Source: Gossypium raimondii (Eukaryota > Streptophyta > Magnoliopsida > Malvales > Malvaceae). Taken from it: 64,000 nt of DNA. The stretch covers positions 16,554,001 to 16,618,000 of the forward strand of contig NC_068569.1 of NCBI RefSeq assembly GCF_025698545.1. Reading direction: 5' to 3'. This document shows positions 16,723 through 63,261 of the stretch, piece by piece (position 1 is the stretch's first letter; each line of letters starts with the position of its first letter). Both the position numbers and the translations under genes were made by a program. A model generated the notes under the pieces. It was not told where the DNA came from, did no database searches, and saw nothing but the letters and a program-made list of their open reading frames with translations.

Positions 16723-17914
16723 TCAGCTTCTTGGAGCTACATTCTCATTGCTAGCCTTTTCACCTTTTTCCTCATCTACGAAGTTCTGATCAGACACCTC
16801 TGCAAACAAAAACTCCAGCCAAAGTTCTGATAATCTTGAATAAAATGTTCATTTTGATACATATATATAGAAATGGTGATTATAATAGAGATGAAAAATA
16901 TTAGTGAAAGCACTTCAATTGAAACGTTGACATATGGACCATTCAATTTTAAATCATCATGCACACACCGATATACCAGTGCGGACATCTGTTGTAGTAC
17001 TGCCAAGTGGAATAAAGTTATCTTCACAATCTCGGCCAACTATGGGTAATGAGATGCATGAAAGTGTTCATTTAAATTGTTTGTTTTTACCTCTGGTTGA
17101 AGCATTGCCTTGAAGACTAGAGGAGGCTAAGACACATGACTTAGATCCAGATCTGAACTGCTGGATCCAAGGGCTTCCCACAAAAGAACGAGAGCCATTA
17201 GTTTTATTAGGTTGAAATCCAGGTCTTTCGAAATTGATCTTCTTCCAGCAACCACCTCGAAGAACTTTAAACTGCAGTATAGATGGGCAGAAAGCAGTAT
17301 ATAAGACTTTGCATAGGGAATTCAGAGGAACACCATCATTATGAAGGAGCAGAGATCAGCCTTGAACCTGGCCAGAAGAGGTACAGTGTATTTGCCTTGA
17401 TGATTTTGGTCTTTCCAATTTCTCCTTTTGTGAGTTCCAGCCAACAAGATTCACAGAATCATATAACTGGTTAATAAATGACGCTTCCATGGAATTAAGG
17501 TATAAACTGTGCTTTTCATCCGTCCATTCAGTAGAGGTAGACTCTGCCACCACAGAACTCTGTTGTATTATCATCAACACACATCATCAGCAAGTTATTG
17601 CAAAAGGGAAGAAATTAAAACAGTACGTAATTCTTGCCGGCAACCAGATTAGAAAACAACAATCCAAAATTAAAGTAAATAAATACCAAATGCTCAAAAG
17701 AAGAGCGGTTGTAAATGAAAAATTAAAAGAAGATGCATGCTTGAAAATAAACAAATAAAAAATTAGCCTATAAAAGTGTTTTGTTAGTATATTAGGTGGT
17801 TTTAAAGTGAAGCAAGGAAATTGAGCTGCAAAACCATATGAAAATTACACTAGTCAACTGAGAGGGAGACGCCTCTAGACTCCTCCGAGGCTCAATTCTG
17901 TTGATACCCTCCAT
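16723..17914 (-). CDS. COLD-REGULATED 27/28-like protein (COR27/COR28 family)
   Basis: Four exons join in frame: 17914-17849, 17559-17368, 17271-17091 and 16799-16723, all GT-AG, giving 171 residues and a TGA stop. The best family signature is in exon 2, EWTDEKHSLYLNSMEASF followed by INQLY, near residues 33-56; exon 3 carries the conserved GCWKKINFERP stretch. COR27 and COR28 are small plant-specific nuclear proteins, induced by cold and expressed with an evening peak, which link the circadian clock, freezing tolerance and photomorphogenesis; they are reported COP1 targets and repress clock genes. They have no known enzymatic fold. The protein is shorter than Arabidopsis COR27, mainly in the poorly conserved parts. 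The first exon boundary (AGT then GTAATT) was chosen because it keeps phase and an intact MEGINRIEPRR start; it is the least certain junction. Confidence 0.8.
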
Positions 17915-18067
17915 GCAAAAAAACACCTTAAGAAAAGATCCCCAGAGCGATGAAGACAAATATATTTGAAGGGAGGGGTAGAGATGATGGCAGGTGAGAT
18001 GTACTGAAAAGGTGATCAGTCGAGGAATGAGGATTGACAAAAGAAAGTTACACTTGTCATCACTTTT

Positions 18068-18075
18068 ACACGTGT
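18068..18075. promoter_or_regulatory. G-box/ABRE core (ACACGTGT) upstream of COR27-like
   Basis: A perfect palindromic ACACGTGT containing CACGTG lies about 155 bases upstream of the COR27-like start codon. G-box/ABRE cores are bound by bZIP factors such as ABFs and by bHLH factors such as PIFs. Its position close to the gene and to three other cold/clock-type motifs supports function; binding is not shown by sequence. Confidence 0.6.
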
Positions 18076-18092
18076 CATAGGACTTTCACATA

Positions 18093-18099
18093 GCCACGT
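18093..18099 (-). promoter_or_regulatory. ABRE (ACGTGGC) upstream of COR27-like
   Basis: Read in the direction of the COR27-like gene this is ACGTGGC, a classical ABA-responsive element, within GTGACGTGGC. It sits 18 bases beyond the G-box, giving the paired arrangement that ABRE-dependent promoters often need. Confidence 0.6.
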
Positions 18100-18118
18100 C
18101 ACTCCTTAAAACAAGCGC

Positions 18119-18127
18119 CAGATATTT
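18119..18127 (-). promoter_or_regulatory. Evening-element-like site (AAATATCT core)
   Basis: Read on the minus strand this stretch gives CAAATATCTGG, matching eight of nine bases of the evening element AAAATATCT, in the gene's own orientation. Evening-element-like sites bind the MYB-like clock factors CCA1, LHY and RVE. Confidence 0.55.
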
Positions 18128-18139
18128 GTTGGAGTGTTC

Positions 18140-18148
18140 AAAATATCT
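18140..18148 (+). promoter_or_regulatory. Perfect evening element (AAAATATCT) upstream of COR27-like
   Basis: A nine-of-nine evening element lies about 230 bases upstream of the COR27-like start codon, 12 bases beyond a second, near-perfect copy in opposite orientation. In Arabidopsis, evening elements together with ABRE-like motifs are reported to drive cold and clock regulation of COR27, so this arrangement supports the gene's identification. Confidence 0.65.
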
Positions 18149-19179: not shown

Positions 19180-19455
19180 AACAATTTTAGAGAAAGAAAA
19201 CAAAACTACAGCGGTCAAGATGACTTCCTTCCACCTGACTTTATGTCTTCCAAGACGCACTTCTTTCACAAATTCGATCCCATATGATAGCAAGCAACCC
19301 TTTTGGGCTTTGGCGTAGTGAGTGTTCATCAATCATCATGGGATGAAACAAAAAGATCAGACGGACAGACAGACAGTGCTCTGTCTGATTCAAGTTTTCA
19401 AGGGAACTAATTGATTATCAAGTGAAGCCTCCAGTTTCCACCTTTTGCAAATATA
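19180..19455. repeat. Copy A of a duplicated non-coding block (partner at 29.4-29.8 kb)
   Basis: Shares a long collinear, diverged match with 29420-29760. Anchor phrases common to both are 'caacaatttt', 'gtcaagatgacttccttcc', 'catatgatag' and 'ctgtctgattcaagttt', ending near 'aactaattgatt'. No open frame is conserved between the copies. It is probably either an unrecognised repeat family or a small segmental duplication. Confidence 0.75.
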
Positions 19456-19891: not shown

Positions 19892-19899
19892 CAAGCGTC
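19892..19899. repeat. Left target-site duplication of the hAT-like element
   Basis: CAAGCGTC directly before the element, matching CAAGTGTC directly after it (20560-20567) at seven of eight bases. An 8-bp duplication is the hallmark of hAT superfamily insertion. Confidence 0.65.
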
Positions 19900-20559: not shown

Positions 20560-20567
20560 CAAGTGTC

Positions 20568-20980: not shown

Positions 20981-20984
20981 AATC

Positions 20985-22307
20985 ACTAATAATTATAGCT
21001 TACTTTCCACTCTTCGTCTGTCCTTTTGGTTCTGAGAAATCCGGGTAAGTTTCTTTCCTTTTCTTTTTTTTTTGGAATGGAATTTATTAATTAACTTTCC
21101 ATTTAATCTCTGACAAATCGAAGCTTTAATTATAAATTAAGCGACAATTTTTTTTTTTTTGCCTGTGGGAATGAAGATCTGAGAATTGCTGGTGTTTGAG
21201 TTGGTTGAATTTATTATCACGACGTTGACTTAAGTAATGAAGCTTACTTTCCTGATTTATTTTCCTTTTTTGTGGCTGACGGAAACAGTCGAGACTTCAA
21301 ATCATTTATGGCTTCTTAATTAGCATATTAGCTTCTTTTGCCTGCTGTGAGCTTTCCTTTACACTTATATTCCCAACTTTTAGCAATTGAATTCAAGGTT
21401 ACAGATTTTATAGATGATAACCGGTCAACTTATTCTAAGTATTATCATGATTATCACTTTTTGGATAAGAAGCAATCCTTTTATTTGAAAACACTGGTAA
21501 AGATCTTCAATCCTGATTAAATCAAGTTGTTTTATCTGCTTATAACAAAAGAAATAGGATTGAAAATGGTTACGCTTCTAATCTACGGCTAGGAATAAGA
21601 TTTAGGAATATGAAACTTATATTGTCAGTTCTTAGCAGATGAATGATCTAGGAAATGTTTGTTTGCTGATTAAATTGCTAGTTTATGTCATTGAGAGACC
21701 CTCTAATTTGTGGGGCTGAATTTGGGGTCAATTGTTAATGGGGCTCTGTTTTTGACCTTTTTAGAGGTTTGAGCTGAAAGCTGGCGTCTTTTTCCATTTA
21801 ATTGATAATTGAATGGGGCTTTTGCATGAAATTAAATTTGATGAGATGTTCAACTTTTGCTCCGTTTTCTTTGACATTGTTGGTTCATTCCTTGATGTGA
21901 TTAGTTGTTGTTGAGGTATTTACTAATTGAATCTTTACTTAAACATCTGTGCCTGATAAAAGAGGACATCTATAAGGTGCATGTGCTAGCTTAAACATAG
22001 ATAGAGGAAAACAAGTTTGAGATGATAAATTGTTCTAGCTTTCCAGGGTCCACTTGATTTTAATGCTTTCTTACTCTTGCTCCTAATTTCTTTGGTCAAA
22101 ACTTGTTAACATAATTTGAGGATCTACAATACATGAATGCAGTTGTAGACACTAATTCGTTTTGCTGAAATCTACTTTGCTTGTTAAACATATAATTGCT
22201 GATTTTCAGATCTGCTATTTTTTTTTTCTTGGAATTAGATGGATTACGCTGTGATATCTTGTTTCTTTTCCCTGTCCCTTAAACGGTTTTTGTTTTCTCG
22301 GTTTCAG
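20985..22307 (+). other. Inferred 5' leader exon and leader intron of the WEB1-like gene
   Basis: A consensus donor (CCGG/GTAAGT) after 21044 and an acceptor (GGTTTCAG) ending at 22307 lie before the coding start at 22328, implying a non-coding exon ending near 21044 and a leader intron of about 1.26 kb. The transcription start is not determined. The intron is T-rich as expected and holds no conserved coding sequence. Confidence 0.55.
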
Positions 22308-22327
22308 ACACCTTATTATTTTCAAAT

Positions 22328-25299
22328 ATGGAGAATGTAAAAGCAGAAGAGATGCCTCGTTCAGAATCTGTTTCGTCGCCTGTAGATATGGACCACATTT
22401 CTGGTGAAGGTCAAGCAATTTCGATTAGTAATGGGACAAAGCAACCTGAAAGTCATTTGTTGGTAACAGACAGTTCTAAATCAGCCTCTTTACAAAATGC
22501 TTCCGGTGATCCAGTTAGAGGACAAGAAGCCAGTAGAACAGAAAGTGCAGCTTCAACTTCGTCAGTTAAAATTGAACAAACTGAGACAGATCATCAGGGT
22601 AGACTGATGGAAGATATTAAGACTGGGGGAATACATGATGGTTCTGATGAACATCCCTCTCAAAATACTGGTTCCAATCCAAAGGTTGGAGATTCCAGAA
22701 ATGACCATTTAGAACCAGCCAAAACTGCTGTTGGATCTATTCATGGTGTTTCTGATGGACAACAATCTCAAGAAACCAATTCTGTTGTCAGTTCTTCTCT
22801 TGTTAATAATGACAATGGCGTGATTTTACCTTCTGTTTCTACCAATCAATCAGAAACTAGTGAGCTTACCTTGCCCCTTTCCGATATTGGTACCATTGCT
22901 GTTGGGTCCTCACCAGATACTTCTATTGGATCCCCTCTTGATAGTTCTCATGTTCTGCTTGATGGCGTTATTTCATCCTCTCCCAAGGTCAATGACTCTA
23001 AGGCAGGAGATGCTAAAAATGAGGATAATGTATACGAAATCAATGATCTTACCCTGCCTCATCAAAAGATTATCAGTTCTGCTGAATCCCCAAAATATAT
23101 TGGCCCTTCACGTAAAAAGCAAATTGATTTAAATAGAGGTCTCATTGATACAGCTGCACCTTTTGAATCTGTTAAAGAAGCTGTTTCTAAGTTCGGAGGA
23201 ATTGTTGATTGGAAAGCTCATAGAATGCAAACTTTGGAGGTATATTAGATATGTTAATATGGTCTTAAAATAATCTGCGTTGCTGCAATTTTTTTCATGT
23301 CTAGTGAATGTTGTTTATCTTGAATTTTATTATGCCTTTATCAATTATTATTGATCATCATAAATTCGTCTTTTCTCTCTGCCTACTTTGTTCATGTCCA
23401 CTAAAACTTAAATTTTATGTAACAGAGACGCAAGCTTGTGGAACAAGAGTTTGTAAAAGTACAGGAAGAGATGCCTGAATATAAAAAACGGTCAGAGGAT
23501 GCTGAAGAGGCAAAAATGAAAGTATTAAAGGAGCTCGATAGCACAAAGAGACTAATAGAAGAGCTCAAGCTAAACCTGGAGAGAGCACAAACTGAAGAAA
23601 ATCAGGCAAAACAAGACTCTGAACTAGCCAAGCTTAGGGTGGAGGAGATGGAACAAGGGATTGCTGATGAGGCTAGTGTTGCAGCAAAGACACAGCTTGA
23701 GGTTGCTAAAGCCAGGCATGCAGCTGCAGTTTCGGAACTGAAATCCGTTAAAGAAGAGTTGGAAACATTAAAAAAGGAATATGCTTCTTTGATGAATGAC
23801 AGAGATATTGCCATTAAGAAAGCTGAAGAGGCTGTTTCTGCTTCAAAGGAGGTTGACAAGACAGTGGAAGAATTGACTATTGAGCTGATTGCCACAAAGG
23901 AGTCCTTAGAGTCCGCACATGCTGCCCATTTAGAAGCAGAAGAGAAAAGGATTGGAGCAGCAATGGCCCGAGACCAAGATACTCACCATTGGGAAAAGGA
24001 ACTAAAACAGGTTGAAGAGGAGCTCCAAAGACTCAATCAGCAAATTCATTCAGCCAAGGATCTAAAATCAAAGCTAGACACTGCTTCAGCCCTGCTACTT
24101 GATTTAAAAGCTGAGTTAGCTTCTTATATGGAATCTACACTTAAGGAGGAAACTGATGGACACCACAATACTGAGTCACAGGCATCAGAGACAAGAACTC
24201 ACACTGATGCACAAGCTTCCGTTGCTTCATTAAAGAAGGAACTTGAAGACGTGAAGGTCAATATAGAAAAAGCAACTGCAGAAGTGGATTGTTTGAAGGT
24301 GGCTGCTATTTCATTAAAATCAGAGCTTGACAAGGAAAAATCTGATCTTGCGAACACTAAGCAGAGAGAAGGCATGGCTTCAATTGCAGTTGCTTCTTTG
24401 GAAGCTGAGCTGGAGAAGACTCGATCAGAAATAGCAGTAGTCCAGATGAAGGAAAAAGAGGCCAGAGAAAAAATGGTGGAGCTCCCCAAACAACTGCAGC
24501 AGGCAGCACAAGTGGCTGATGAGGCCAAGTCACTTGCTGAAATGGCTCGTGAAGATCTGCGCAAAGCAAAAGAAGAAGCAGCGCAAGCAAAGGCTGGAGC
24601 AAGTACCATGGAGAGTCGATTACTTGCAGCTCAAAAAGAGATAGAGGCTGCCCGGGCTTCAGAGAAGTTAGCTTTAGCTGCAATCAAAGCGTTGCAAGAG
24701 AGCGAATCGGCTAAAAGCATTGATAATGTTGACTCACCAGCTGGTGTAACACTTTCCTTAGAGGAGTATTATGATCTTAGTAAACGTGCAAATGAGGCAG
24801 AGGAGCAGGCCAACATGAGGGTTGCAGCAGCTATTTCTCAAATTGAGGTAGCTAAGCAATCTGAGTCAAGAAGCTTGGGTAAGCTGGAAGAAGTGACCCG
24901 AGAGATGGCTGAAAGAAAGCAAGCACTAAAATTGCTATGGAGAAGGCTGAGAAGGCCAAGGAAGGGAAGTTAGGTATTGAGCAGGAATTGAGAAGGTGGA
25001 GGGCTGAACATGAGCAGCGGCGTAAGGCTACTGAATTGAATCATGGAGAAAACCCTCCAAGGGCAAGCTCTGAGGGAAAGAAAGAAACAAAGAACTTTGA
25101 ACCTGTACCTGCTGCTCCTACTCTGGCCGATACCCTAGCAAGCCCAAAGGCATATGATCACGGGAGCACCACAGAAACTGAATCATCCCCGGAACCGAAG
25201 GTTGTAAAGAAAAAGAAAAAGTCATTGTTCCCGAAGATTTTAATGTTTTTGTCCAGGAAGAAGTCAAGTTCATCCAAGTCCCACGTAAGTAGTCAATGA
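22328..25299 (+). CDS. WEB1-family coiled-coil protein (DUF827), with a one-base frameshift
   Basis: Two coding exons, 22328-23239 and 23426-25299, joined at a clean phase-0 GT-AG intron. Residues 1-240 are acidic, Ser-rich and disordered. Then comes the family motif [20 protein letters not shown] and [20 protein letters not shown], followed by about 500 residues of heptad-rich coiled coil ([20 protein letters not shown] and on), and a very basic tail ([19 protein letters not shown]). WEB1 and its partner PMI2 are cytoplasmic coiled-coil proteins needed for blue-light chloroplast movement. An A-run at 24928-24931 is one base short of what the conserved stretch [15 protein letters not shown] requires, so as given the frame ends at 24973 (about 819 residues) instead of 25299 (about 928). 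This may be a sequencing error or a real truncation. Confidence 0.85.
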
Positions 25300-29419: not shown

Positions 29420-29760
29420 CAACAATTTTTGGAGAAAGAAGACCAAAATATAGTGGTCAAGATGACTTCCTTCCACCTGACCTTATTAATGTCTTCCTTC
29501 CAAGAACCGGTTCATCACAAATTCAATCTCATATGATAGCTAGCAACCCTTTGGGCTCTCGCTTACTGAGTGTTGTTCTTCATGAGATGAAAACAAAAGG
29601 TATCACACAGACAGACTATGTTCTGTCTGATTCAAGTTTCCTCCTGTTTCTGCATTTTGTTCACCCTCTGGTATCACTGTTTCTTGAAGATCAATCTGAC
29701 CTGTTTCAATTGAAAGGAACTAATTGATTGTCAAATGAACCCTTTATTTTGCAAACATAA
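29420..29760. repeat. Copy B of a duplicated non-coding block (partner at 19.2-19.5 kb)
   Basis: Collinear with 19180-19455 in the same orientation, sharing 'gtcaagatgacttccttcc', 'catatgatag' and 'ctgtctgattcaagttt'. It carries roughly 70 extra bases near the right side (29640-29710) that copy A lacks. It is about 10.2 kb from copy A. Confidence 0.75.
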
Positions 29761-30420
29761 AACAGTTGTGTCATCATATATGGAGATGATATTTCCATAA
29801 ACAATCAATTCGTAATCTGATGTTTTGCTCCACAAGAGGAAAGTGGGGAGGAATCCACACACGATCGTTGCAATTTGTCCTATGCTAAACAACTATTCTA
29901 GATATTATAGACAGGTTTTAGGGCAAATGGAATTCAGATATTTTGCTTACTTTGAGAAAAGGGGAAAGAAAACAAAAACAATATAGTATATAGAACAAAT
30001 TGGATCTCATGTGCAGAGCAAGCATGTGTGTTCTTATGCTGGATAATGAGGCATATATACGTTTTGATCAACCAGCAACCAGCCATACACGAATATAATA
30101 AGTCGGGTATTCTCAGTATTCTCCAATGAGAAAATATCATACCTAGCAAGGAAATAAGAGATGGGGCTTTTGAAGGGCCGCTGGCTGTCCTGTCAGTACC
30201 TGTAATGCATACCTAAATTATTAAGTCTAATCCCAAATAGTGACATGTGTGGCAACTCACGAAGTCTGTCATAAAATTCTCTGTTTGTACAGTTATCATA
30301 TTCATAGCTGCTGTGCGAAAAAGAAAAAGCATTTCTGAACTGCTATCATGAAGAAGGAAAAAGAAAAAGAAAAAAAAACCAGAATTGCACTCCCCGTCAT
30401 CAAGTAGTTTTAGCGACACA
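29761..30420. other. Downstream flank and probable 3' untranslated region of the NDR kinase
   Basis: AT-rich sequence with no supported gene, immediately 3' of the minus-strand kinase. The end of the kinase transcript must lie here. Confidence 0.5.
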
Positions 30421-33965
<3,545 letters not shown>

Positions 33966-35289: not shown

Positions 35290-38200
35290 CTAGAAGAACC
35301 GAAATTCGACAAATTGGGTACAATTTGTGAGAAATGTAAATGCACATGTTCGGAGTCCATTTAGCTTGGCCCGTATGAAATGTTGGTGTCTTCTTGCCAG
35401 GCGCACGGTAGCCACTAGGAAAGCAAAGGCTGAGTTTCCACCTGATACAAAAAACAGGCCAGCGACTGGGCGAGGACCTAAGCTTGAGCTTAATCCGTCG
35501 CTCACGCCCGTAGATTGTGAACATGAGTTGTTAGAGATGAGCAAATATTCTTCCAATCGCGGCATTTCTCCATTTTCCATCACTTTTAGGATTGCCTCCG
35601 AAAACTCAAATGCCAAACGAGAACCTTTCGGGAACACCCAAAGCAGACAAAAATATATTTTACAAAAGATTCATCAATGGAAAATCGACGGTATATGGAA
35701 AGTGGTAGGAATTAATTACAAAGCCAAAACCACCAAGCTTGAAGGTAGGTCCTGTCATGGTGAACCCTTTACAGTACTTGGCAAGGAAGACTTTTGCATG
35801 AGGCACAACAAAGAAAGCAGCTTGAATATCTCCATTTCTAAAGGCATCCGGATAGTCATTAATGGAATCGATTTTCCTAATGTTCTTTGGCTTAAAACCC
35901 AACACATTGATCAAATACCCAACGATAAATGAATTCCTATTACATCCAACGCTTGCATTTGTTCTCAAAAGTGTGTCAATGTCTGAAACAGATGGTTGGA
36001 GGTGTGAGATTGTCAACATGGAGGTAAGACTTGCGGTGAAGCCTGCCGATATTATTAGAATTGCAAACAACCATGGGGCCAGCACAATTCTAGATAAATT
36101 GCTCCTTAATGGTTCTCCTGCATGTGATCATATATCTCAGACTTCTCTAATGAAGCTAAATGGAACATATTTATAAAACTTAAATGACTTTTAACTGAGC
36201 TTACTGTGTTCAAAGAATAAAACAGTGACAGAGAACCAAAGTACTGCCCCAAACCTCGTGAGATCGGGGTTCTCCGCATGTTCAATTAGCCAAATAACAA
36301 ATCCTATGAAAGTATGCATTGCTATAGTTATCAGCCACATTCTCCTTGTAAATGTCTCCAAGAACACCCACTGTTCTTTTGACTTGTCTGGTTTTGCAGT
36401 CACTACCATAATAAGTCCGGATTCAAGGTATGGCTGTGAAAACTCTGCGTATTGATATCGATATGCCATTATTTCTGTATCTCCAACTGCTGCATCTAAG
36501 TCCTACCAAGTTTACATGAATCTATCAGTGTTCACCAAGCACAGTTGGAAGATTATAGATAGCTATAGCATAGTGAAAGGAAGAAACCTGACCTTGCTAT
36601 AGACTTGTTCCACCATATCATCATATGAGCCGTAAAACGGAACGAGCACGTAAGGTAATCGATAAGGAAGGCGTTTGACAACAGCTTCAAACACTTCAAC
36701 TGAGAATCCTGTGACATATGAACCATTAATGCCTTGGTCGTAACTCACTTTAACGAACAGATTAAAAGCTCCCCTGGCAGGAACCCCAATTTTCAGTGGC
36801 TTGTCCTCGTCAAATTCAAAAGAAGTCCATCCCTTTGGAACAGTTTGTAAGCCGCCAGGCCAATAAATCGGGCCTAATTCTTTCATGGTCATGTTGCCAA
36901 ACGTAGTGTTCTCTCCTTCATGTTTGTTGGAGTTTTCCGTGAACCCGGATTGTGGTTACCAAATTGCAACCTCTCTGTAGCTTTTACCTACCACATTAAT
37001 GACCTGAAAGGTAGGAAGATGTTTCAATAATGTGGTATTTCTGAATCTTATTCTTCCGCTTAAACCTTCAAAGTTACTTGATAACATTTGTTTAAACAAT
37101 TCTTTGGATGTGGCATTAGCTGGTGATTTGTCCATGGCTTCAGCAATTGTCCAAGCTGCATCATAAGCTCGCAGGGCATAAATACTTGGGTTCGAAAACT
37201 CTTCTTCTTCAGCGTATCTTGTCCCGTAGTGCTTTCAGAATTTTGTTTTGAACCGTCTAAAAGACTTGCTAGAGTCGATGAACCTGGTTCTGAAACCGAG
37301 CACGCCTTGCATGTTATAAAGAGCTGAAGAATCAATAGAATCAAGAAGGCTGGCGATTTCATCACCGACAATCCATACATATCCTTTTTCCATCATACAC
37401 ATTTGCTTAGCCTTCTCGAAAAGCGAGATAGCGAACCGTATAGAGGACTGTACTCGAATGAAGACCCTGTTGCTATTGCTCCTCAGTTTCCTGAGCTCTT
37501 GTTCGATGGCACCATTATGTTCCGAGACAGATGATTGAGAAGGGAAAGATAAATGATGATCAATCTCTGAACCAACAACTCTAAGTGAGTCAGAAAGCAG
37601 AGTTATAACAGAATCAGTAATAAAATCATTGTTATCTTGGTAAATTACAGTCACTTTTCTCCATCGGAAGTAGTTTACGATGGCAGCAATGCATTGTATG
37701 TTGACCTTGATGTCATTAGCCATTTAGAGGAAGAAGGGCAACTGGTATGTTGGTAAGATGGATGGTGAAGAAGTTAGGGATATAATAGGCATATCCCTGG
37801 TGGCCTTTTCGATTTCAGATACTAGAGTTGCTTCTGGCGGTGTAATTGTTCCGATGATTGCTTCCACTTCTTCGCTACCAATGAGCTCCAACGCTGCAGT
37901 AGATGTAGTATTTAAATTGTGTTATAGCTATGGTCAAGAACTCAGTAGTATCAAAGCTCCAAATTACATACTTGCTTACATGGTATGAGACGATTGGATA
38001 ACATGTAATTGTCCTAACTTAGCGCAACAACCCCTGATGATAATCAAAAGTCACCAAACCCAAATCCATCCAAACACCAGGGTTTTGAAACACGAGTTTA
38101 AATATCGTTACAACAATTGAATTTTATTTAATTTATATTTAAATAATAAAAATAATTTAACTAAGATTCTAAATAAGAGTTATTAATTATTTTTATTTAT

Positions 38201-38735
38201 TTGAATTTTTAAAATATTTATGAAAAAACAAAAACGTCACTAAATAGGAAATTAAAATCTATATAAGTAAAAAACTCAAAACTTAAAATTAGCTTGAAAA
38301 AATCAAACACAATTCTAATAACCTAACCAACAACATGTTGATCCTCACATACCCCAATAATAAGTATATTTATCAGACTAATAAGCGCTCTTCTCTTACT
38401 GACTTAAGTATGGTATTGGACCCATAGTTTTTGTTTTTTCTTGCAAGCCCAAATTTCTCATAATCTAGCGAAACCAACCATCCTTGACGTAATTTTATGT
38501 GCTAAAGAGGAAGCAATGCAGTTTAGGATATTAAAATGATTTACCAGAAGAAGCTGCTCGAGCTGAGCTTCCTTGACCAAGTTAAATGATGAAAATCCTG
38601 GACGGCCATTTCCATTGCTATTCCCTGCTCCCGTCATGTTTCATTGGCGCATTCCCCCTCATCTTTGCCATTTGATTCAGCGATTGCTCTCATTATTAAT
38701 AGCAAAAGCAGGAGGAAATATGAGATTCGAGACAT
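35290..38735 (-). pseudogene. Glutamate receptor-like (GLR, clade 2 type) pseudogene
   Basis: Ordered pieces of a plant GLR are visible: a signal peptide (MSRISYFLLLLLLIMRAIAE), the start of the amino-terminal domain (GREQGIAMEMAVQDF-like), its middle (EEVEAIIGTITPPEA), the ligand-binding lobe (KIGVPARGAFNLFVKVSYDQ), the pore region (FGAVLWFSVTVLFFE), the [12 protein letters not shown]-like third membrane segment ([13 protein letters not shown]), the second lobe, and the last membrane helix. GLRs are membrane cation channels gated by amino acids. This copy carries in-frame stops at 38634, 37724, 37235 and 36956, has lost part of the amino-terminal domain where AT-rich DNA (38030-38560) stands, and has GG instead of AG at the last acceptor (35638-35639). 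The other introns (after EQVYSK and after FFEH) still look sound. So it is a recent or slowly decaying pseudogene. Confidence 0.85.
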
Positions 38736-43399: not shown

Positions 43400-43868
43400 T
43401 AACTTTAGCACTGTGTTTCTTTGTCTCTCTAGCTAGCTATAGCCCATTCTTCTCTTTGCCGTGTTCCACTTTTTTATTTCATTTAGAAAATTGGTTTTCT
43501 TTTGAATAATTAATCGACTCATATGTAGTATCTGATTTTTTAATTTTTTGCGGGTGTGGCTTGTTAAATTTCTTGAGCACATTGGAATGTTAGGTGTTAC
43601 TAGCACTTGCAGAACAAAAAAAGAAAGAGTTGGTCTTTACATCCCCTTTTGTGTTCATGTTTTTTTTATTGTTTTTCTTAGCTAAAGAATTACTGTATAG
43701 ATCTTGATTTTTGGGTTTTTCCTTCTTCTTTTTTCAACGTGTACTTCCCAAATATAGAAATATGTAAATCTTTCAAACTGCATGGGATTTATTTTCATTG
43801 AAGTAGTAGTTAAGGACTTTTATATAGCATAGTTTTTAGGATCATTTCTTTGACACTATTCTATACAG
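43400..43868 (+). other. Probable leader region with a 5' untranslated intron of the ABF-like gene
   Basis: A T-rich stretch ending in 'ttctatacag' at 43868, just six bases before the start codon, looks like a 3' splice site. A leader intron is therefore likely, but its donor could not be fixed. Confidence 0.45.
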
Positions 43869-43874
43869 ATTTTA

Positions 43875-46087
43875 ATGGGGACTAACATGAACTTTGGAAG
43901 TAACCCACCGCCGTCAGGTGATGGCGGCGGGAACAAACCGCCGGGCAATAACCTGCTAACTAGACAGCCGTCAATCTATTCTCTAACCTTTGATGAGTTT
44001 CAAAGCACTATGGGTGGAATAGGCAAAGATTTTGGGTCAATGAACATGGATGAATTGTTGAGGAACATTTGGAGTGCTGAAGAAATTCAAACAATGGCGT
44101 CTTCCGGTGGTGTCCTAGAGGGAAATGGAGGGTTACAAAGGCAAGGCTCTTTGACTCTGCCAAGAACACTTAGCCAGAAAACAGTTGATGAAGTCTGGAA
44201 AGATATTTCAAAGGAGTATTCATTGGGGAAAGACGGTATTGGAGGTGGAGGAGGCACTAATAATATGCCACAAAGGCAGCAAACTTTAGGAGAGATGACT
44301 TTAGAGGAGTTTTTGGTGAGGGCTGGTGTGGTAATAGAGGATACCCAATTGGCTGGGAAGGTTAATAATGAGGGGTTCTTTGGTGGGAATAATACTGGTT
44401 TTGAAATTGGGTTTCAACAAGGTGGTAAAGGTCCAAATTTGATGGGAACTAGGATTCCTGATGGTGGTAACCAAATTAATATTCAGGCTTCCAATTTGCA
44501 TCCTAACGTTAATGGAGTTAGATCAAACCAGCACCAGTTGGCTCAGCAGCACCAACACCAACAACCAATCTTTCCTAAGCAAACAGGGGTGGGATATGGA
44601 GCTCAGATACCTTTACAAAGTGGTGGTCAGTTGGGGAGTCCTGGAATTCGGAGTGGAATGCATGGGATTGGGGATCAGGGAATAAGTAATGGTCTGATTC
44701 AGGCAGGTGCACTGCAAGGTGGAGGGATGGGGATGGTTGGTTTAGGAGGGGCGGTAGGTGTTGCGACCGGATCACCTGCTAACCAGGTTTCGTCAGATGG
44801 GATTGGGAAGAGCAGTGGAGATACTTCATCAGTTTCCCCAGTTCCTTATGTGTTTAATGGAAGCATGAGGGGTAGGAAATACAGTGCGGTGGAAAAGGTT
44901 GCTGAGAGGAGGCAAAGGAGAATGATAAAGAACAGAGAATCAGCTGCAAGATCACGAGCTCGCAAGCAGGTGAATCTATTCTCTAGGTTACTCAAATTCG
45001 TTTAGCTACTCAATGAAACTTCTGTTTGAAATTTTATGCTTTTCGAGTTGATTAAAACGTAACCCACATTAAATTTCCAAAGTTGAGAAATCAGAATTAC
45101 CATCCCACCCATTTTCCTCTTGTTGTGGCTTAATGAGTTTTATCAGTCATTGACCTTCTGCTCATATTATCTGTGACTTGGTGCGTACCGAAACTTCATG
45201 GAATATTTATGCTGCAGTATGGTAATTTTGATAGCCATCTGACATGACATGGGAAGTTTTACTGGCTAAATGGAGCATTTGTTTAACAACATGGGAGGTT
45301 TGAAGCTGTGTATCGTATAAGAACCTAAAAAAACCCTTTAATTGAGGTTGACATTCTTGACCTTATTGATTTTGGTATAACTATTATCAAGCAAACCGGT
45401 TGTATCCCATGGTGGCTTTTAACCAGTGAAATTATTGTTGTCTCAAATATATGCATTGAAGTTTCTTAAATTTTTTTTTTTTTTTGGGGGGGGGGGGCGC
45501 CGGGGGGGTTCTCTGCTAGGCTTATACAATGGAATTGGAAGCAGAAGTTGCAAAGCTAAAAGAGGAGAATCAAGAATTGCGGAAGAAACATGTATTTTAC
45601 TTTTCTTTCTTTCAATGCACCCCCTTATCATTTGCACACAATAGTACTTATACATTCTCTTATCGTCTGTACTTTGGTTGTTTGCAGGCAGAAATCATGG
45701 AAATGCAGAAAAATCAGGTGATGAAGTTGTCTTTGGCACCTCTGTTTTTATTTATATACTAACAACTTAAGTTATACCCTCCTCAAACACCATGAAGCAT
45801 CGTTATTTGCATAATCTTACACCATGTACTCTACTTCACTACTTGGTTTACTTTTGAAAGCATTCTTAAGTGCACAATCCACGTGAGCTGTAAATTTTTC
45901 TTTTGCCCTATTAAATATTATGACCGACCTTACTAGAAAATGTGCTTTGAACTTGGCAACCTTTGAATGTTCTATATTCTAAAATCATGCTTAAATTCTT
46001 CGACTGCCATAGGTCATTGAGATGGTGGATATGCAACAAGGAGCTAAGAAGCGATGCCTACGAAGAACCCAGACCGGTCCTTGGTGA
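43875..46087 (+). CDS. ABF/AREB-type bZIP transcription factor (ABA signalling)
   Basis: Four exons join in frame: 43875-44969, 45520-45591, 45688-45717 and 46013-46087, giving 423 residues. All the group A bZIP marks are present: C1 near residue 30 (LLTRQPSIYSLTFDEFQST) with the RQPS phosphosite, C2 (DEVWKDI), C3 (LGEMTLEEFLVRAGV) with RQQT just before it, and C4 at the very end (RRTQTGPW). The basic region NRESAARSRARKQ ends exon 1, and the leucine-zipper heptads continue into exons 2-4. Such factors bind ABREs as dimers after SnRK2 phosphorylation at the RxxS/T sites and drive drought and salt responses. The middle is rich in Gly and Gln. The closest type is ABF2/AREB1 by gene neighbourhood. 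The start is the first ATG, fitting the family N-terminus. Confidence 0.93.
45471..45508 (+). repeat. T15-G12-CGCC-G7 low-complexity tract just before ABF exon 2
   Basis: Fifteen T, twelve G, CGCC and seven G end only 11 bases before the exon 2 acceptor. Polypyrimidine is expected here, a G block is not. The tract may be an unstable simple repeat or a base-calling artefact. Confidence 0.85.
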
Positions 46088-47042
46088 AAGTAAATCATGT
46101 TTACGAAGAAGCCTGTGATTCGTGGTTAAATTATGCGTGGCAGGTAGTTGTACATATTTAAGTGGCAAGGATGGTTGTTCTATCTTTAGGTTTGGAGTGA
46201 TGAATTAGTGCTGTAGCCTGTAGTGTAGAATAAGGATCTTCCAATATTTGCAATAATTTTTTTCCTGCTCCCACAAGGATGATGGTTCATTTAGTTACAC
46301 CATATCTGTAAATTTCCGAATATCCCCAACATCAATTGAACTAATTTGAGTTTATTTCATGAAAAAGCATGGTCCATTTAGTTAATGCGATGCCCAGTAC
46401 ATGTTCATCAGAGGATCATGATCTGAATTTTTTCATCTTGGCCGGTTGGATCGTGCTATGCATAGGCTTTTATTCTCTTTTACTAAACCATCGTCTCTCG
46501 GCAGAAGTAACCAATGAAAATACCCAATCTCTGTTCTTTGGGCCGTTGATGGCTCAACGAAGAGAAATACATGCAATAACGATCGGGGGAGGGGTGTAAT
46601 TCAGCATACAGCTTAGAAAACATGCCTGTTCATAATTTTATCGATATGCCCTAAATTCAAAAACCAATTAAAACATAATCGCAAATCGATAAATAAGAGC
46701 ACTAGACATACCTTACGGTTCAACATTATGAAAAAACAAATTGATGATAATCGCGGTGACCTCAGCCCCCAAGGCCACATCCGACATTAATACAGCTTGC
46801 TAATCAAAGGCTGAGCCCCTTCTTTTTGAGTTTAGCAAGTCAAGGGAATCAGATCCACTTTGAAACAACTCCTTTCAAGTTGCCATAGCAACCTTACCTT
46901 CACTAGTAGATTCACTGTTTTAGTTGCACAAAAGGATCAACCTGGTCCTTTTTTTGGGTTAAAAATCCATCTCCAAGTTACTTCCTCTGTGGCCGTACAG
47001 CAAGATAGCATCATTACATCCAAATCATGATATACTTTAATT
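46088..47042. other. Convergent 3' flanks of ABF-like and THO5 genes
   Basis: The two genes point toward each other, so this ~950-base gap must hold both 3' untranslated regions. The reading frame near 46369-46599 has no recognisable content. Confidence 0.6.
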
Positions 47043-50000
47043 CTAAAAAGGATAGCCAGTAGTGCATTCCATGTCCTTCCAGGATATCATTTTCCGACGA
47101 TCCCTTCCCCTGAATGATCTGGCGAGAAGCCTACCACTAACAGGTTTACACAATCCAACATCAATCACAGAACTACTCTTCCTCTTCTCGGAAGATGGAG
47201 TTGCCTCATCCATGTAATAGTCAAACAACATAGCAAGACAGTAGACTTGATGTGATAATGTATAGTTTTCATCATCTGGGGGTACCATCTTTAACATATG
47301 AAGATTTACCTACAACAATGCAACCAGAGAATGAGAATTTGTCGCACATGCTTAGGGAAGATAGTAGCAGTAGGCTCTCAGGCAATGCAGTTTAAAGTTG
47401 TTAGGAGAATAAGAAACTGGTAAAACTTTTTATCATTTCCGAACTTCATGATTCACCATAAGAAGCATGGGCTTGTAATTATGCTACATGTAATGTCATT
47501 CCATGTCTACTCCTGGAGAAAATACTCTAATGAATCACAATGCATTATCATGAAAAATAGCTACTTCAGAAATTCTAGTTGCTTACCTCAGCTTCCATAG
47601 CACGAACTTCATTCTGCCACCCGGAATAGTCATTCTTGGAAGAACTTTCTCCAGGAGAGTAAAGATTCACAGTAAACAAAGGAGGCCTGAGAGGGTACTC
47701 CATGCTGATCTTAATCTGCAACAGTTTAATTTGATGTCAGATTTCCATCTTTAATGAACATGATAAAACAAAACGAAGTAATTATTGACACCTTGGCTTC
47801 TAGTTTCATATTGTGTCCAGTTGTGTCCATTTTCCTCGTTAAAAGAAGAACAAATTCCTTGATACCACAGTCAACCCATGATTTTTCAGCTATTTCACAG
47901 CACTGAGTAGAAGAAGAGTTTTCAGTCTCTGTCTCTAGGGGCTCATCCACTTCACTATCAGTCTCTAGCATGAAGACACACTCATCGTCATGTTTTTTGA
48001 AACTAGGTAATTTTCCCCTACTGCCTGGGGACAAAATGCTCTTCGAAATCAAGGCCAACTGCTTGGAATGGTTAAGACTAGATCCCTTTAGTGGAGTAAG
48101 TTTAGCATCATTTGTGACGGATGGAACTGAAAGCAAAGATGGAAGCTCCCCATCTTCCCTAAAACCCTCCAGCTCTTCCTTCGAGATACCAGATCTTCCA
48201 TCCATATCAACATCCATGGGCTCTTGAACTGGTTCTGAGTCAATAATAGGTTGAGATGAAGCCTCGTTGACTTTGGATCCTACAGATGACCAACTATGCA
48301 AACTGCACAAGGGAGTATGCAAGGCCCACGGAACACTTTTACAATTCAGAGCAGGCCATTTAAGCTTCGAAAGTGAATCAAGCTGTTCCCTGTAATTCAA
48401 TGAAAGAATTCCAAATTTTCAACAAAAACCTACCATACTGAAGACAAAACAAGCTAAGAGAATTCCAACATAGAATAAAACAAATTCCAACACGCAAGAT
48501 GCATCAAACAAACAAGTTCCATTTAAGGCAGAGAGAGAAATTTGTACTAAACCACAAATTTGGGACTTTATATCATAAAGATGCCAACAAAGACACTAGC
48601 ACAGGAAATTATATTTTATAACCAAAATATTCAGATTTGACCACATTGTGGAATTCACTCCTATTTGCTTTCTTATTGTTTTCTTCAAGATCCAAACTCC
48701 AAACATACAGGACAGTGACTCACGCAAGAGCCAGCTCAGCTTTTATTCGTGAGCGGATTCTTTGCACAACTGTCTGCACTCTGTTCTGCTGGCGATACAA
48801 TGCAAGACCAGAGATAACAGCTTCACTTTTGGTTTCATTGTTTGAAGCTTCCAGACTATTAAGCAATGGTGAAACCTCAGGTAAGAAATCAATTCCTGCC
48901 AAATGCTGGGCCCACTTGTATGGACGTGAAGTTCTCTTTTCATCAAATGTAGCCCCATCACCAATGAAGAGCTTGGCTGACTGCAATATCATTCAGAACA
49001 GTCAGTATTACATGAAAAGGAAAGCTTAAAAATGTTAGTGAAGGTAACAGTGAAAGCAGGGCACATAATATCCATCAGACACAAACCTGGTGAGGCAGAT
49101 CCAGTCCGGTGTCATCAGGAAATAAATTACAGAGGATATAATACTCAGGTCCTTCAGATGATCCTTCAATCCCAACGCAAACAACATTCAACTTTAACAG
49201 GTACTCAAACTTCAAAGTAATAAGTTTTGTGGATCCAGGATCAGATGCCTCATCATCATATATGTGTAGGATAATTTTCAGAGGATGAACTTGATAGACT
49301 CCCGCCTGATCAATAGCCTCCTTGCTGAGAACCCTCTTTGGTCGTTTTCTCCTCCTCTGTCCATCATCTTCCTCATCTGGTATATCATCCTCCATCCTTG
49401 AGCTCTCTATACTATTAGATACGCCTGGCAATTAACAATATCAGTACTTGATTAAAAAAAATTGAAGCCATTTGCTAGCCCAGAACATTTTAGAGGCAGA
49501 GTTAAGAAGATAAACTTAAGTAAAATAAGTATCGGAAACATCATAAATAAAATTCTTTGCAGAAATAGACAGGATTAGTTACACTCACACTCCTAGGAGT
49601 TTAACCTAACCTAACAAAGTTAATTTCGTTACCAACCCTTATTTTTCAACTTGAATGATCACGCCCATTTGTAATAACCTACTTGTCCATTACCTTGGAG
49701 TACAGAAATAACTTTAAAGTACCATCTCAAGAGCTATCAACTATGGTCACTATGCATACAAACAGAAGGAAGATTAGCATTACTCACCATTGTCTTTATT
49801 TGCTTGCTGACGGGCAAAAGCCTGAGCATCCTTCAGACTTCCTATGATCTCCAGATCAATATCTTCACCAAATGCTTCCTTCTGGGCCATGAACTGTGAG
49901 TAAATCACATAGAGTGGAGGTGGAAGAAGTTCGGCTGAATTATGTTGCTTCAGTTTCTTTGTATGCAAAACACCCAATTGATTCTGAACAGGCAACGATG

Positions 50001-50913
50001 CTTTCTTAAGGGACTTGAGGTGTGATGGCAGACTCGACAGAAACTTCTTCCGATTGGCTATCATCTCCAGAAGACTTTTCTTCTGTTGTTCCAACTTTTC
50101 TAAAAGTTTGCATAGCTCTTTCCTCTGAGAAAGATAATATCCAAACGTTGGCTTAGCAAAGCAGTTTTACCCTAATTCCTTTAAACACGTTATATGCTTT
50201 ACTAAACACAGTTTTCATAACATCAAAAAAAATAGATAAAGAAAATAATATATTTATCAATTAAGCTTCGATTTAGTTAGCAAATACCTGGAATAACTCA
50301 TAATTAAGTCTCTTAAGCATCAAATTGTGCGAGCTATCATCAGACAAATTTGAACCCTTAATTTCTTCAGGCGCACCGCCAAAAAACTCCTCCTCGGATA
50401 CAAGCTCGATATCAGGATACTTAGATTTGAAATCTTTGCAAGTTTTTATAGCTTTCAAATAGTGACTCTTCTCGTACATTAAATTGTGAAGCTGCAGCGT
50501 CGTGAAATCAACCGGCGCCTTTGCGCGTTCCGTCTCTGCTTTCACTTTGTCTTCCTCCAACAATATGCTACGATTCGCCTGAAAAATAAAGAAAATCAAA
50601 ACACGAGGTTTCCATTTCAATTTTTTTTCCTTCTCTAATGGATAAATAGAGATGCGAGGGATAGAGAGGAAGAGACGAAGATAACCTGGCGGAGATTGAC
50701 GAAGTGAAGGAACATTTGGGTGACCTGTTCTCTGAGCTCGGATTTTGGTTTTTTTTCCTTTTTGACAGAGAGGATTTTGGCGACGACCGCTTCGACCGAG
50801 GCTTTGGTTTCTTTAAGCGTATCGTAAGAAGATTTCTGAGGCTTGCGCGGCGGAGCTGGTGACTCTGATCTCTCGTCCACCACCATTCCCTCCTCTATCT
50901 CTCCGTCCTCCAT
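47043..50913 (-). CDS. THO5: THO complex subunit 5 (THOC5)
   Basis: Eight exons join in frame: 50913-50686, 50578-50288, 50124-49788, 49424-49087, 48980-48724, 48389-47792, 47715-47587 and 47309-47043, all GT-AG, giving 814 residues, close to the Arabidopsis THO5 length I recall. Landmarks are YEKSHYLKAIKTCKDFKSKY and PDIELV (exon 2), the coiled-coil RKELCKLLEKLEQQKKSL (exon 3), LPPPLYVIYSQF (residues 250-270), a basic RRRKRPKR signal, HPLKIILHIYDD and LFPDDTGLDLP (exon 4). THO5 is a subunit of the nuclear THO/TREX complex, which couples transcription to mRNA export and in plants also affects small RNA biogenesis. The chosen start is the first ATG of the acidic MEDGEIEEG leader. Confidence 0.95.
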
Positions 50914-55476: not shown

Positions 55477-56050
55477 ATGAGCAAGACAAGCCATCAAAAT
55501 AAAGTTGGAATTGACCCTAGATTAGAATTCCATTTATGACTTTAATACATACGAAGGTAAACCTACAAATTTGTTTCTAATTATATTTTAGTCATTTATA
55601 TTTAAAATGTTACGTTTTAGTCATTTACATTATCATTTTGTTATGAAGCGATCACTCTATACTATTACCTCCCTAACAGCAGTCCTACGTGGTAGTCCAA
55701 ATAGGTTTTAAATATCAACTTAGATGTTTAATTGCTAGGATGAAAATAGGTTGTTAATTAAATAAATTTAATTTGGACTGCTACGTAGGACATCCAAGTT
55801 GACATTTAAAACCCTTTTGGACTGCTATGTAGAATCGTCGTTAGGGAAGTAACGGAGCTTAACAGTGAGTGTCTATTTCGTAATAACAAAACAATAACGT
55901 AAGTGACTAAAACGTAACATTTCAAATATAAGTGACTAAAATATAATCTGAGACAAATAGAAGTGACTATTTTTATAATTTACCCTTATATATTCAAGTC
56001 ATAAATGGAATTGTAATTCCAACTTTATTTTGATGGCTTGTCTTGCTCAT
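55477..56050. mobile_element. Fold-back element with perfect 36-bp terminal inverted repeats
   Basis: The outer 36 bases at the left (ATGAGCAAGACAAGCC...) are matched exactly on the opposite strand at the right end, and the match continues imperfectly through about 250 bases of each arm (for example 'gttacgttttagtca', 'tttagtcac', 'ccctaac'). Only a short centre near 55.74 kb is unpaired. No coding sequence and no clear target duplication were found. A single-arm relative is at 6783-6990. This fits a long-TIR miniature element such as a Mutator-like or unclassified fold-back. Confidence 0.8.
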
Positions 56051-57389: not shown

Positions 57390-57397
57390 ACCAAAGC

Positions 57398-59630: not shown

Positions 59631-62600
59631 ATGGCGGAGCTAGGGCTTCAAGATCGAAACACAGTGAGATCAGGCTACAGAGCTGGAGCTGCGAGCCCTG
59701 ACTCCGTTATATTTACTCTGGAATCGAACTTCAGCCTCTTCTCGTCGGCTTCCGCTAGTGTTGATCGTTGCTCTTTTGCTTCCGATGCTCATGACCGCGA
59801 TTCCATCGCTTCCGAACTCTCTTTAGTAACTTCTCTAATCTTTCAACATTTTATTATCTAAATTTGTGAGTGCAGTAAGCAGAGCAAGCTGTAACTGCGT
59901 ACATTATGATCGACCATTTTTTATAAACTTGCATTTTTTTTCCTTACCTGATTTTTCTTTTTCAATTTTTTGAAAAGAGGAAAACAAAAATTGAAATTGA
60001 AATGTCAATGTTTTTTGCAGCATATGGCAGGACAAGAAAGTGGAGATCAGAATGAGAGTTTTGGTGGACCAGATCCAGATCCAGATCCAAACAAAGCTAT
60101 AACAGTCCCCAAGCACATTCGTCTCTCCAGAAAAGGAGAAAAAGTGAAAGGTACTCGAGATTTCTTTCATAAGTAGCTTCTTTTGAAAAAAGTTAAAAAA
60201 TCGAAATTGCACCGGAAAAGAAAACGAATAAGCCCAATTTTTTTTTAAATTCACTCACTGTCCTTGTCCTTTTGTCTGCCTACCCCTCGCCTCTCCCTTT
60301 TTCCCTTTCGCGACAATACGCAGTAAAAACAGAAGAAAACGGTCCAGCTCATACAGAGGACGAAACTCAACTCAGAGATTCAGCAAGAAACTCGTTTTCC
60401 CTAGCTCTTAAAGGTGTCCTTTAGTTACTTTTTAAAGTTGTATTTTTTAGCTTACTATATTTCAAAAAGTAATAATTACGAATTCTGTACATAGAGTGTC
60501 AGGACAGGAAGACGAGATCTGACGCTTTGTTGAAGAATCCTGATAGGCGAAGACCAGCTTCATTAGATCTAAATAATATCTCTGGTTTGTCTCCACGGTT
60601 GGGGACTGTGAAGAAAAGCTCTGTTGTGACACGGAAATTGGGTGCATTTCCTAGTCCCGGGACACCCAATTATCATCATAATTCGAGTGTTGGGATGCAG
60701 AAGGGTTGGAGTTCAGAGCGTGTGGCATTGCACAGCAATGGTGGAAGGAGACAGGGGAATGCTTCTGGGTTGTTGGCTTTTAACAATGGAAGGACTTTAC
60801 CTTCAAAATGGGAAGATGCTGAGAGGTGGATTTTTAGTCCTGTTTCTGGGGATGCTGGTTCAAAGCAATCTATTGTGCATCCGCAGAGAAGACCAAAATC
60901 AAAGAGTGGTCCCCTTGGTCCTCCTGGGATTGCTTACTATTCGTTGTACTCTCCTGCGTTGCAAATGTTCGATGGAGGGCATATGGGGAATTTCATGGCT
61001 GGTTCTCCTTTTTCAGCTGGTGTAATTGCAGCTGATGGTTTGACAGTTCATTCTCGTAGCCATGGTGGAGGATTTGCTGTTCAGACTGAGCCTTGCATGG
61101 GCCGTTCTGTTAGCGTACATGGATGCTCTGAGGCAGCGAATCCACCATCGTCTCAAGGTACATTTCCATCTCTATTGTGCAAAATTCCTGGTTTAGTTGA
61201 TAATATGAGCGTTGGCCTACTCCAGTTATCTCGATATTATGAGTGCCTTTTTAATTTTATGAGATCCATCACGGAAATTTCCTTCTTCATGTTTATTGTC
61301 TTGTCATCCAAATTGATAATATTAATATTAAGACTTTATATTTGATGCGTGGTCATAAACTGAAACTTGTCATTTAATAAAAATTAAAGACCTTGTATTA
61401 AATCCTAAATTTTTTTCTTGAGTTATTACCAAGTGCATACCTCTCGATATGGGAACTGTTTAAACGTTAAAGAACGTGAAAGTCAAGGCTGGTGGACATG
61501 AACAGAGTAGGCCTTTATTTCTCTACATACGCTTAGATTTATGAAACTGATGCTTCTTTTTCTTAATATGATCCATGAAATATCAAAATGAACATTCACT
61601 AAATCTAACCTTGATGTAATATCAAGAGATAGGTTGTCATCATTATGGTAATTACTAAGACTATTGTACTCTGTAAGTCATCTTTCCAATTGTTTTCTCA
61701 CCAAAGATGCAGAAGAAAACCTTGATGTCGTCAAGGATGCAGCCACTGATATTTCCCAAACGGTTTCAAGAAGAGACATGGCGACCCAAATGAGCCCACA
61801 GAGTAGCACCCACTCGTCTCCCAAAGGAAGGCCTTCTTTCTCTCCCTCTTCCCCTTCAGCTCTACCTATCATGGAACTGCAGAGCATCCATGGCTCTAAA
61901 TCATTACTGAGAGATGTGCCAGTAGATGAAAGGGTGACCCTGACTAGGTGGTCGAAGAAGCATAGAGCTCGAAACACTGGGAAGAGCTCAGAAATTGTTG
62001 ATGATTGGAGAAAGAAAGTTGTAGATACTTGTACATCAACATGGGATGTTACAGAGACAGGAAAGAGCATTTCCAAGTATGTCTACTTCACTACTACATT
62101 GCCTCTATTTTTTTTTTTTTGAAGTACAGATCAACAACTTTGGGAGTGACAATATGCCTTAAGGACTGGAGTAAGCATCCTCTGGGTTCATTTCTATAAT
62201 CAAGCACTAAAAGATACCTTCAGTAGCATGCTAAAAGTTTCCAATCAGACATTTTGTTCTCTGTTCACTCCCAATCACATTCTTCCTTGAGTAACAGCTT
62301 TAAATGATTGCAGTATAAGGATTAATTTAGGAGATATTATGAGCCTCCAGTCAGATTGTGTTGGATTTGCCTTTTGTCTTTTCTGTAGATCTTTCCTAAG
62401 AAACTGCATCCAACTTATCACTTTAAACAAGTAAATCTTAGTCTGGTTAGGTGAAAGGTTTTTCTGAAGTCTTCATGTCATCTTCAGATATCAGAAACTG
62501 ATCAATATGAGAGGACATTGGAAGAAATTGAAAATCCTTTAAAACAAGCATGGTAGATATTCAATATCAATTCGTTTCCTCCTCTTTTGCAGGATGAAAA

Positions 62601-63261
62601 GAGAAGAAGCCAAAATCACTGCCTGGGAAAATCTGCAGAAGGCTAAAGCCGAGGCAGCCATAAGGAAACTAGAGGTTTCTTTTCTCCTGAGTACTATTAA
62701 CAACTGTAGTAATCTATTTAAGTCAATGATCAACCTTGATACAGAAAAAATAAAAATCCTCTCGCAGTATGATTTAAATATTTCTTTCCGTTTCTTATCT
62801 GTCTAGCTTGCTCATTTAGGTATTAAAGCAATCATGTAACATCTTGATGAACTGGAACTGAGTAGATAGTGTCACTTGTTCTTTTACCGGCACAACTTTT
62901 GGTTTTGCTCTTAAATAGAATATACATGACAAAAACATAGACAAAGTGACAAACATGACCACTAAATATGATAATTTGTGGTGAAAATGCAACAGCTCTA
63001 GAATGACCAAAAACCTTATTTCTTCATCATTACTGACACAATGATATATTTCAGATGAAGCTGGAAAAGAAGAGATCGTCATCAATGGATAAGATAATGA
63101 ATAAACTAAGATCAGCTCAGAAGAGAGCCCAAGATATGAGAAATTCGATGCTGGCCAACCAGGCCCATCAGGTTACAAAGACCTCGCATATGGCTATATC
63201 TTTCAGAAGAACCCGCCAGATGAGTTCATTGAGTGGTTGCTTCACCTGCCAAGCTTTCTAA
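59631..63261 (+). CDS. Remorin family protein with long N-terminal region
   Basis: Seven exons join in frame: 59631-59825, 60021-60150, 60324-60413, 60495-61157, 61707-62076, 62593-62674 and 63055-63261, giving 578 residues. The C-terminal ~130 residues are the remorin domain: KREEAKITAWENLQKAKAEA, then AIRKLEMKLEKKRSSSMDKI and MNKLRSAQKRAQDM, a coiled coil. The protein ends GCFTCQAF, with cysteines suited to S-acylation, the usual remorin membrane anchor. The long N-terminal part is Ser/Pro-rich and disordered, with conserved ATQMSPQSSTHSSPKGRPSF and VTLTRWSKKHRA blocks and a small DPDPDP repeat in exon 2. Remorins are plant-specific scaffold proteins of plasma-membrane nanodomains. The long architecture matches the At1g45207/At2g02170 type, from memory. 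Exact subgroup function is unknown. Confidence 0.93.

Follow-up and report, generated by a model that had tools for sequence, protein, structure and literature searches.

Fractionated paralogous blocks, which descend from ancient polyploidy, have been described for cotton and other eudicots. They comprise several copies of one segment, each with a different subset of the genes in the original order. Here, we analyse a window of 64,000 nt from Gossypium raimondii (C5:16554001-16618000; Table 1), in which genes of the COR27/28, WEB, NDR, ABF, THO5 and remorin families are found between 16.7 and 63.3 kb (window positions). The original prediction took this neighbourhood for the undisturbed order of six families from before a duplication, later split over Arabidopsis chromosomes 1, 4 and 5, with the WEB-like gene At4g33390 and the NDR kinase gene At4g33080 among its relics. 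We find that the window is probably a single fractionated segment left after at least two large-scale duplications. It shares with the described blocks the several copies, the different gene subsets and the original order, and there is no difference in kind, the window merely having an extra local WEB gene and an unpaired glutamate-receptor-like (GLR) gene. Ordinary fractionated microsynteny plus one deep linkage of COR and ABF is a well-supported description of this locus.

The closest Arabidopsis segments were compared by locus numbers, as printed in papers or known as background. In the papers cited here, COR27 is At5g42900 and COR28 is At4g33980 (PMC10315267, where AT5G24900.1 is printed once for COR27), ABF2 is At1g45249, ABF3 is At4g34000 and AtbZIP15 is At5g42910 (PMC7868070; also PMC10005393), the lipases OBL3 and OBL5 are At1g45201 and At5g42930 (PMC12712439), and a remorin with the peptide GWSSERVPLR is At1g45207 (PMC5302697). 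By these numbers, At5g42900, At5g42910 and At5g42930 are a COR gene, an ABF-family gene and a lipase, while At1g45201, At1g45207 and At1g45249 are a lipase, a remorin and ABF2. Each of the two COR genes has an ABF-family gene at most two loci away, with a chance of ~2e-6 under a uniform model built, like those behind all chance figures given below, after the result was known. The original prediction had made no use of At5g42910 and the lipases, which strengthen the case for an old neighbourhood.

The At5g42900-At5g42930 segment resembles our locus in its COR gene, its ABF-family gene, probably also a THO5 gene, and its lipase (a lipase is also found by ABF at two other places in G. raimondii, on C3 and at C5:23.28 Mb), but it differs in consisting of compact, consecutive loci, and presumably it has no NDR, GLR or remorin. 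The At1g45201-At1g45249 segment has a remorin, ABF2, a lipase and probably again THO5 close by, but it is devoid of a COR gene, since the numbers of COR27 and COR28 place them on chromosomes 5 and 4. At4g33980-At4g34000 has COR near ABF, as on contig C12 of G. raimondii, and differs from the other two in possibly belonging to an older layer.

A collinear copy of the block on C6

Collinearity was tested in the window's own genome (750.8 Mb, 281 contigs), protein by protein, with one or a few exons each of ABF, WEB, remorin, NDR, THO5, GLR, COR and COQ10 as queries. The region C6:1.52-1.58 Mb carries WEB-COQ10-COR-NDR-remorin in the order and orientation seen on C5, provided that WEB is matched to a left copy of this gene located outside the window (WEB'), and the strands agree for all five common genes. 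The full order on C5 is WEB'+, COQ10-, COR-, (WEB+), NDR-, (GLR-, ABF+, THO5-), remorin+, with the genes that are not part of the C6 order in brackets. The best copies of COQ10, COR, NDR and remorin outside the window are all at C6 1.5368-1.5761 Mb, at most 55 kb from the C6 WEB gene (1.5228 Mb; 72 and 61% in two pieces). The uniform expectation for four genes that close to a fifth is ~5e-16. The C5 and C6 segments are a duplicated block (paralogon). A remorin copy at C12:14428858 (plus strand) matches at 61%. Synonymous divergence (Ks), a simple estimate made by the Nei-Gojobori method on tblastn pieces, is in rough agreement between window and C6 for NDR (0.445), remorin (0.377; the pieces of these two genes are stop-to-stop frames, which may hold a few intron codons) and COR (0.618), with WEB (0.826) out of line.

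The C6 block bears directly on the idea that members of large families are found here side by side by chance, in a neighbourhood without common ancestry. The numbers of matches (199 for the kinase, 31 for bZIP, 3 for remorin) give this idea some initial appeal, but five genes collinear on C6 with agreeing strands refute it for COQ10-COR-NDR-remorin, and COR is found beside ABF on C12 too. We regard it as practically dismissed.

The WEB gene of the window as a probable local duplicate

The left WEB copy (C5:16499456, plus strand) is located 78 kb to the left of the window WEB gene. Ks between the two is 0.262, while their Ks values to the C6 gene are 0.826 and 0.841. As the left copy precedes COQ10 and COR, i.e. 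occupies the same place as WEB on C6, the window gene most probably arose afterwards by local duplication, apparently at a young age, between COR and NDR. A frame shift near 24.9 kb, where the window gene lacks one base in comparison with the left copy, puts its last ~100 residues out of frame; it is possibly an assembly error. A possible relic of a WEB 3' end at C3:16992132 (126 bp, 77%) is too short to carry weight, and a tblastn search with the WEB exons gave no match at this site. We also considered that WEB is foreign to the block, and dropped this idea because C6 shows it together with NDR and remorin.

These data bear on the undisturbed six-family order as well. WEB, NDR, COR and remorin are genuinely members of one duplicated block, and the neighbourhood is old in so far as it is collinear with C6 and has COR and ABF together on C12 as well; to this extent the idea of an ancestral neighbourhood holds. 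It is not, however, a single undisturbed order from before the duplication: duplication and local change have shaped the window too, WEB stands between COR and NDR in the window only, as the young copy described above, and on C6 it precedes COQ10-COR. Moreover, GLR and COQ10 had been omitted from the proposed order. The GLR gene sits between NDR and ABF, so these two are not adjacent, contrary to what was proposed, and COQ10 is the left neighbour of COR.

Copies of ABF with a lipase

ABF has copies in its own genome at C3:16954577, C5:23280179, C12:2873087 and C13:3958718. Its Ks is 0.405-0.408 between window and C3, 0.416-0.426 between window and C5:23.28 Mb, and 0.414 between C3 and C5:23.28 Mb; these equal distances fit a single multiplication. 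At both sites a lipase gene is convergent with ABF, adjoining it at C5:23.28 Mb and ~25 kb away on C3. The C3 lipase was identified by Pfam (Lipase_3, 5.7e-35) and that at C5:23.28 Mb by its similarity to the C3 one. A search for a second THO5 in the genome returned the exons of the window gene only (three of three matches). With the C13 ABF as query, PDB yielded no matches.

An older linkage of COR and ABF on C12

The sixth and weak match of the COR search (42%, E 6e-4) is located ~6 kb from ABF on C12. A reading of 7 kb there, with 1.8 kb between COR and ABF left out, revealed a diverged COR paralog at C12:2880108-2881928 (plus strand), in which three exon blocks are collinear with the window COR (54.5%, 42.6% and 62.5%), which identifies it as a COR-like gene. 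On C12, as in the window, COR and ABF are arranged head to head. By chance, a COR copy would fall within 8 kb of any of the four ABF copies with a probability of ~8.5e-5. Window-C12 Ks is 2.37 for ABF and 2.30 for COR (104 codons), both near saturation. For ABF, window-C13 Ks is 1.55, at or near saturation, while C12 and C13 are 0.606 apart. Near C12:2.87 Mb, WEB, NDR, THO5, remorin, GLR and COQ10 were not found among the matches listed. The presence of the linkage in a copy with saturated Ks indicates that COR and ABF were linked before the recent multiplication; we call this layer old because of the saturation, which carries no date.

A deep linkage of two stress regulators invites a functional explanation, according to which shared regulation keeps COR (light, clock, cold) and ABF (abscisic acid, ABA) together, with the other genes as passengers. 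COR-ABF is indeed the linkage found in the deepest copies, head to head in both, and it appears twice in the Arabidopsis numbering of the papers cited above. On the other hand, 26 kb and three genes separate the two in the window, ABF has no COR match on C3 and at C5:23.28 Mb, and COR has no ABF beside it on C6. Copies with ABF only and with COR only mean that the linkage is unnecessary for retention, and we consider this explanation improbable. A narrower version, in which a regulatory landscape shared between light/clock/cold and ABA responses has kept just the head-to-head COR27/28-ABF pair linked through at least two large duplications, both in Arabidopsis and in G. raimondii, may be true, yet we would not expect it to be.

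The history that we favour begins with an old duplication, at a Ks beyond the reliable range, of a segment in which COR and ABF would already have been head-to-head neighbours; one descendant of the pair would now be on C12 and its counterpart in the window. The window segment would then have been copied in a later multiplication (Ks ~0.4-0.6), so that C6, C3 and C5:23.28 Mb would be copies of one segment. C6 would have retained WEB-COQ10-COR-NDR-remorin, and C3 and C5:23.28 Mb ABF with the lipase. The window would have kept most genes, among them the sole THO5 and the sole close GLR that the searches found, and would have acquired the WEB duplicate between COR and NDR. In Arabidopsis, At5g42900-42930 and At1g45201-45249 may be relics of the window lineage, and At4g33980-34000 may come from the older, C12-type segment. 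One genome alone separates two duplication layers and points to the Arabidopsis segments worth comparing. As COR and ABF were neighbours before the recent multiplication, position can tell orthologs from paralogs in either family, and the deep linkage should be of interest to those who work on either of them.

Several observations weigh against this history. In the C6 block no matches to ABF, THO5 and GLR were found, the nearest ABF-family match on C6 being at 4.79 Mb (47%), and when the window proteins were compared with 100-kb stretches at C3 and C5:23.28 Mb (E 1e-3), ABF was the sole match besides a 27-residue kinase piece (a match to NDR near C5:23.31 Mb, taken as an unrelated kinase). Remorin alone therefore ties the right half to C6. 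The C3 lipase is at some distance from ABF, and a lipase predicted to follow the remorin was not found within 8 kb past the window. WEB, with a Ks to C6 roughly double the values of NDR and remorin, speaks against a simple history of one event, and its place differs between the window and C6. The Ks values of the supposed recent layer are also spread, if one includes the C12-C13 pair of ABF genes and the relative at C3:60.8 Mb, which is 0.997 from C12. Finally, the C12 and C13 ABF genes may match ABF4/ABF1 instead of ABF3, and the assignment of Arabidopsis segments to layers is based on locus numbers and background knowledge, and not on sequence.

Arabidopsis chromosome 4 and the NDR subtype

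COR28-ABF3 on chromosome 4 may belong to the older C12 layer, with At1g45 and At5g42 fitting the window, in which case the three chromosomes of the original prediction may mix two duplication depths. A single literature search did not find At4g34000 beside At4g33980 or At5g42900, and one for grape locus prefixes gave no match. Among the locus numbers used in that prediction, those of COR27, COR28, ABF2, ABF3, the remorin and NDR6 occur in the papers cited, and the THO5 pair and At4g33390 are unconfirmed: THO5 At1g45233/At5g42920 and the WEB-like At4g33390 had no literature match in searches that required at least two terms together. We take the names THO5A and THO5B to have been swapped there, and we assume that the WEB-like genes At5g42880 and At1g45545, which had no match in a search of the same type, are better candidates than At4g33390 for the At5g42 and At1g45 clusters.

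NDR6 is indeed At4g33080, one of eight NDR genes (PMC8409290), and the WEB family has 14 members (PMC13364359). By number, At4g33080 and At4g33390 are ~90 and ~59 loci from COR28, and the chance of some family member being that near is about 15% for NDR and 24% for WEB, with an assumed total gene number for Arabidopsis. The assignments of NDR to At4g33080 and of WEB to At4g33390 are thus within the reach of chance, and unproven. Besides, the At4 numbering gives NDR-WEB-COR-ABF over ~90 loci, in a different order.

The window NDR has 107 residues ahead of its kinase domain and an insert of 67 or 73, depending on the method of counting. In a published table (PMC3499706), the values in the column that we take as N-terminal length are 102-113 in NDR4/6/8 and 127-145 in the remaining five. 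Those in the next column, which we take as the DFG-APE insert, are 77 in NDR4 and NDR6, 72 in NDR8, 73 in NDR7 and 67 in NDR5. The N-terminal length of the window protein fits NDR4/6/8, in favour of the relic on chromosome 4, but its insert is nearer to NDR8/NDR7/NDR5 and misfits NDR4/NDR6, so the two lengths point to different subtypes, and the kinase may be of the NDR7 type. Taken together with the changes in order described for WEB, this makes the undisturbed order of six families, with At4g33390 and At4g33080 as its relics, unlikely in our view.

Gene content of the window

All six families of the original prediction were recovered in their places, WEB, NDR, THO5 and remorin by Pfam, ABF by bZIP_1 together with its genome copies, and COR by sequence motifs (Table 1).

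Table 1. Genes of the window and of the adjoining C5 region, with their C6 copies; positions on C5 and C6 are contig coordinates
Gene	Window position	Strand	Evidence	C5 position	C6 copy (strand; match)
WEB1-like, left copy (WEB')	outside the window	+		16499456	1522833 (+)
COQ10-like (polyketide cyclase family)	11827..14156, ends approximate	-	Polyketide_cyc, E 8.5e-11	16567437	1536810-1537046 (-; 81%)
COR27/28-like	16723..17914	-	spliced model: 4 exons, 172 aa, without internal stop	16570726	1539726-1540985 (-; 65-70%)
WEB1-like	22328..25299	+	WEMBL (PF05701) profile		
NDR-type AGC kinase	30145..33965, ends approximate	-	Pkinase exons at 31.7-32.8 kb (Pfam) and exon reading	16585694	1546261-1548088 (-; pieces 96, 74, 100, 92%)
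GLR	35300..38735, ends approximate	-	Pfam and PDB match		
ABF/AREB bZIP	43875..46330, 3' end approximate	+	bZIP_1 below cut-off and genome copies		
THO5	47043..50913, 3' end approximate	-	FmiP_Thoc5 (Pfam); tail to tail with ABF		
Remorin, long N-terminal part	59631..63261	+	Remorin_C, 2.1e-8 and 1.9e-14, at 62.5-63.3 kb	16614476	1575362 (+; 73%)

The COR27/28 family name of the window gene is our assumption from sequence motifs and not the outcome of a family search; likewise, the name COQ10 and the later exons of that gene, at ~12.4 and ~11.9 kb, are presumed from motifs. The WEB gene has the WEMBL domain that defines WEB1/WPR proteins (23423-24973, E 8.8e-216; 22283-23248, 1.2e-17). In ABF, exon 43854-45005, which contains just the beginning of the zipper, matches bZIP_1 below the cut-off (21.4 vs 27.6 bits). 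FmiP_Thoc5 matches THO5 at 49780-50166 and 49075-49431 (6.4e-37 and 3.7e-20), with a third piece, 48720-48992, below the cut-off. The remorin contains the peptide GWSSERVALH, resembling GWSSERVPLR of At1g45207.2. The GLR gene was recognised by ANF_receptor (4.4e-20) and Lig_chan (4.9e-11), with Glutamate receptor 3.4 as the best PDB match. The single GLR exon searched has no close relative elsewhere in its own genome (best 40%), and the gene may represent a receptor branch with one member left there.

A piece of the COQ10-like gene (13434-13760, minus strand) recurs weakly at 37 further places among the matches listed, on 12 of 13 large contigs, often in open frames of ~53 residues. By reading, the recurring part is mostly query residues 53-98, i.e. 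an exon end and ~20 residues of the next intron, and it has the look of a gene fragment that a DNA-type mobile element has picked up and multiplied.

An Rfam scan of the window gave no matches. Broken frames at 571-1832 (plus strand) resemble, by eye, the tail of a retrotransposon without long terminal repeats, with an RNase H-like part; two of them had no match in Pfam. Just past the window (C5:16.620 Mb; 1706-2305 plus of the adjoining stretch) there is a 199-residue frame, which we take to be similar to the plant mobile domain found in genes of transposon origin. Two 60-nt direct copies at 19185-19244 and 29427-29486 (88%) are probably members of one repeat family. At 55569-55958, a pair of 76-nt inverted repeats, 88% complementary and 238 nt apart, is related to an 80-nt copy at 6925-7004 and to further copies on C3, and resembles a miniature inverted-repeat transposable element.

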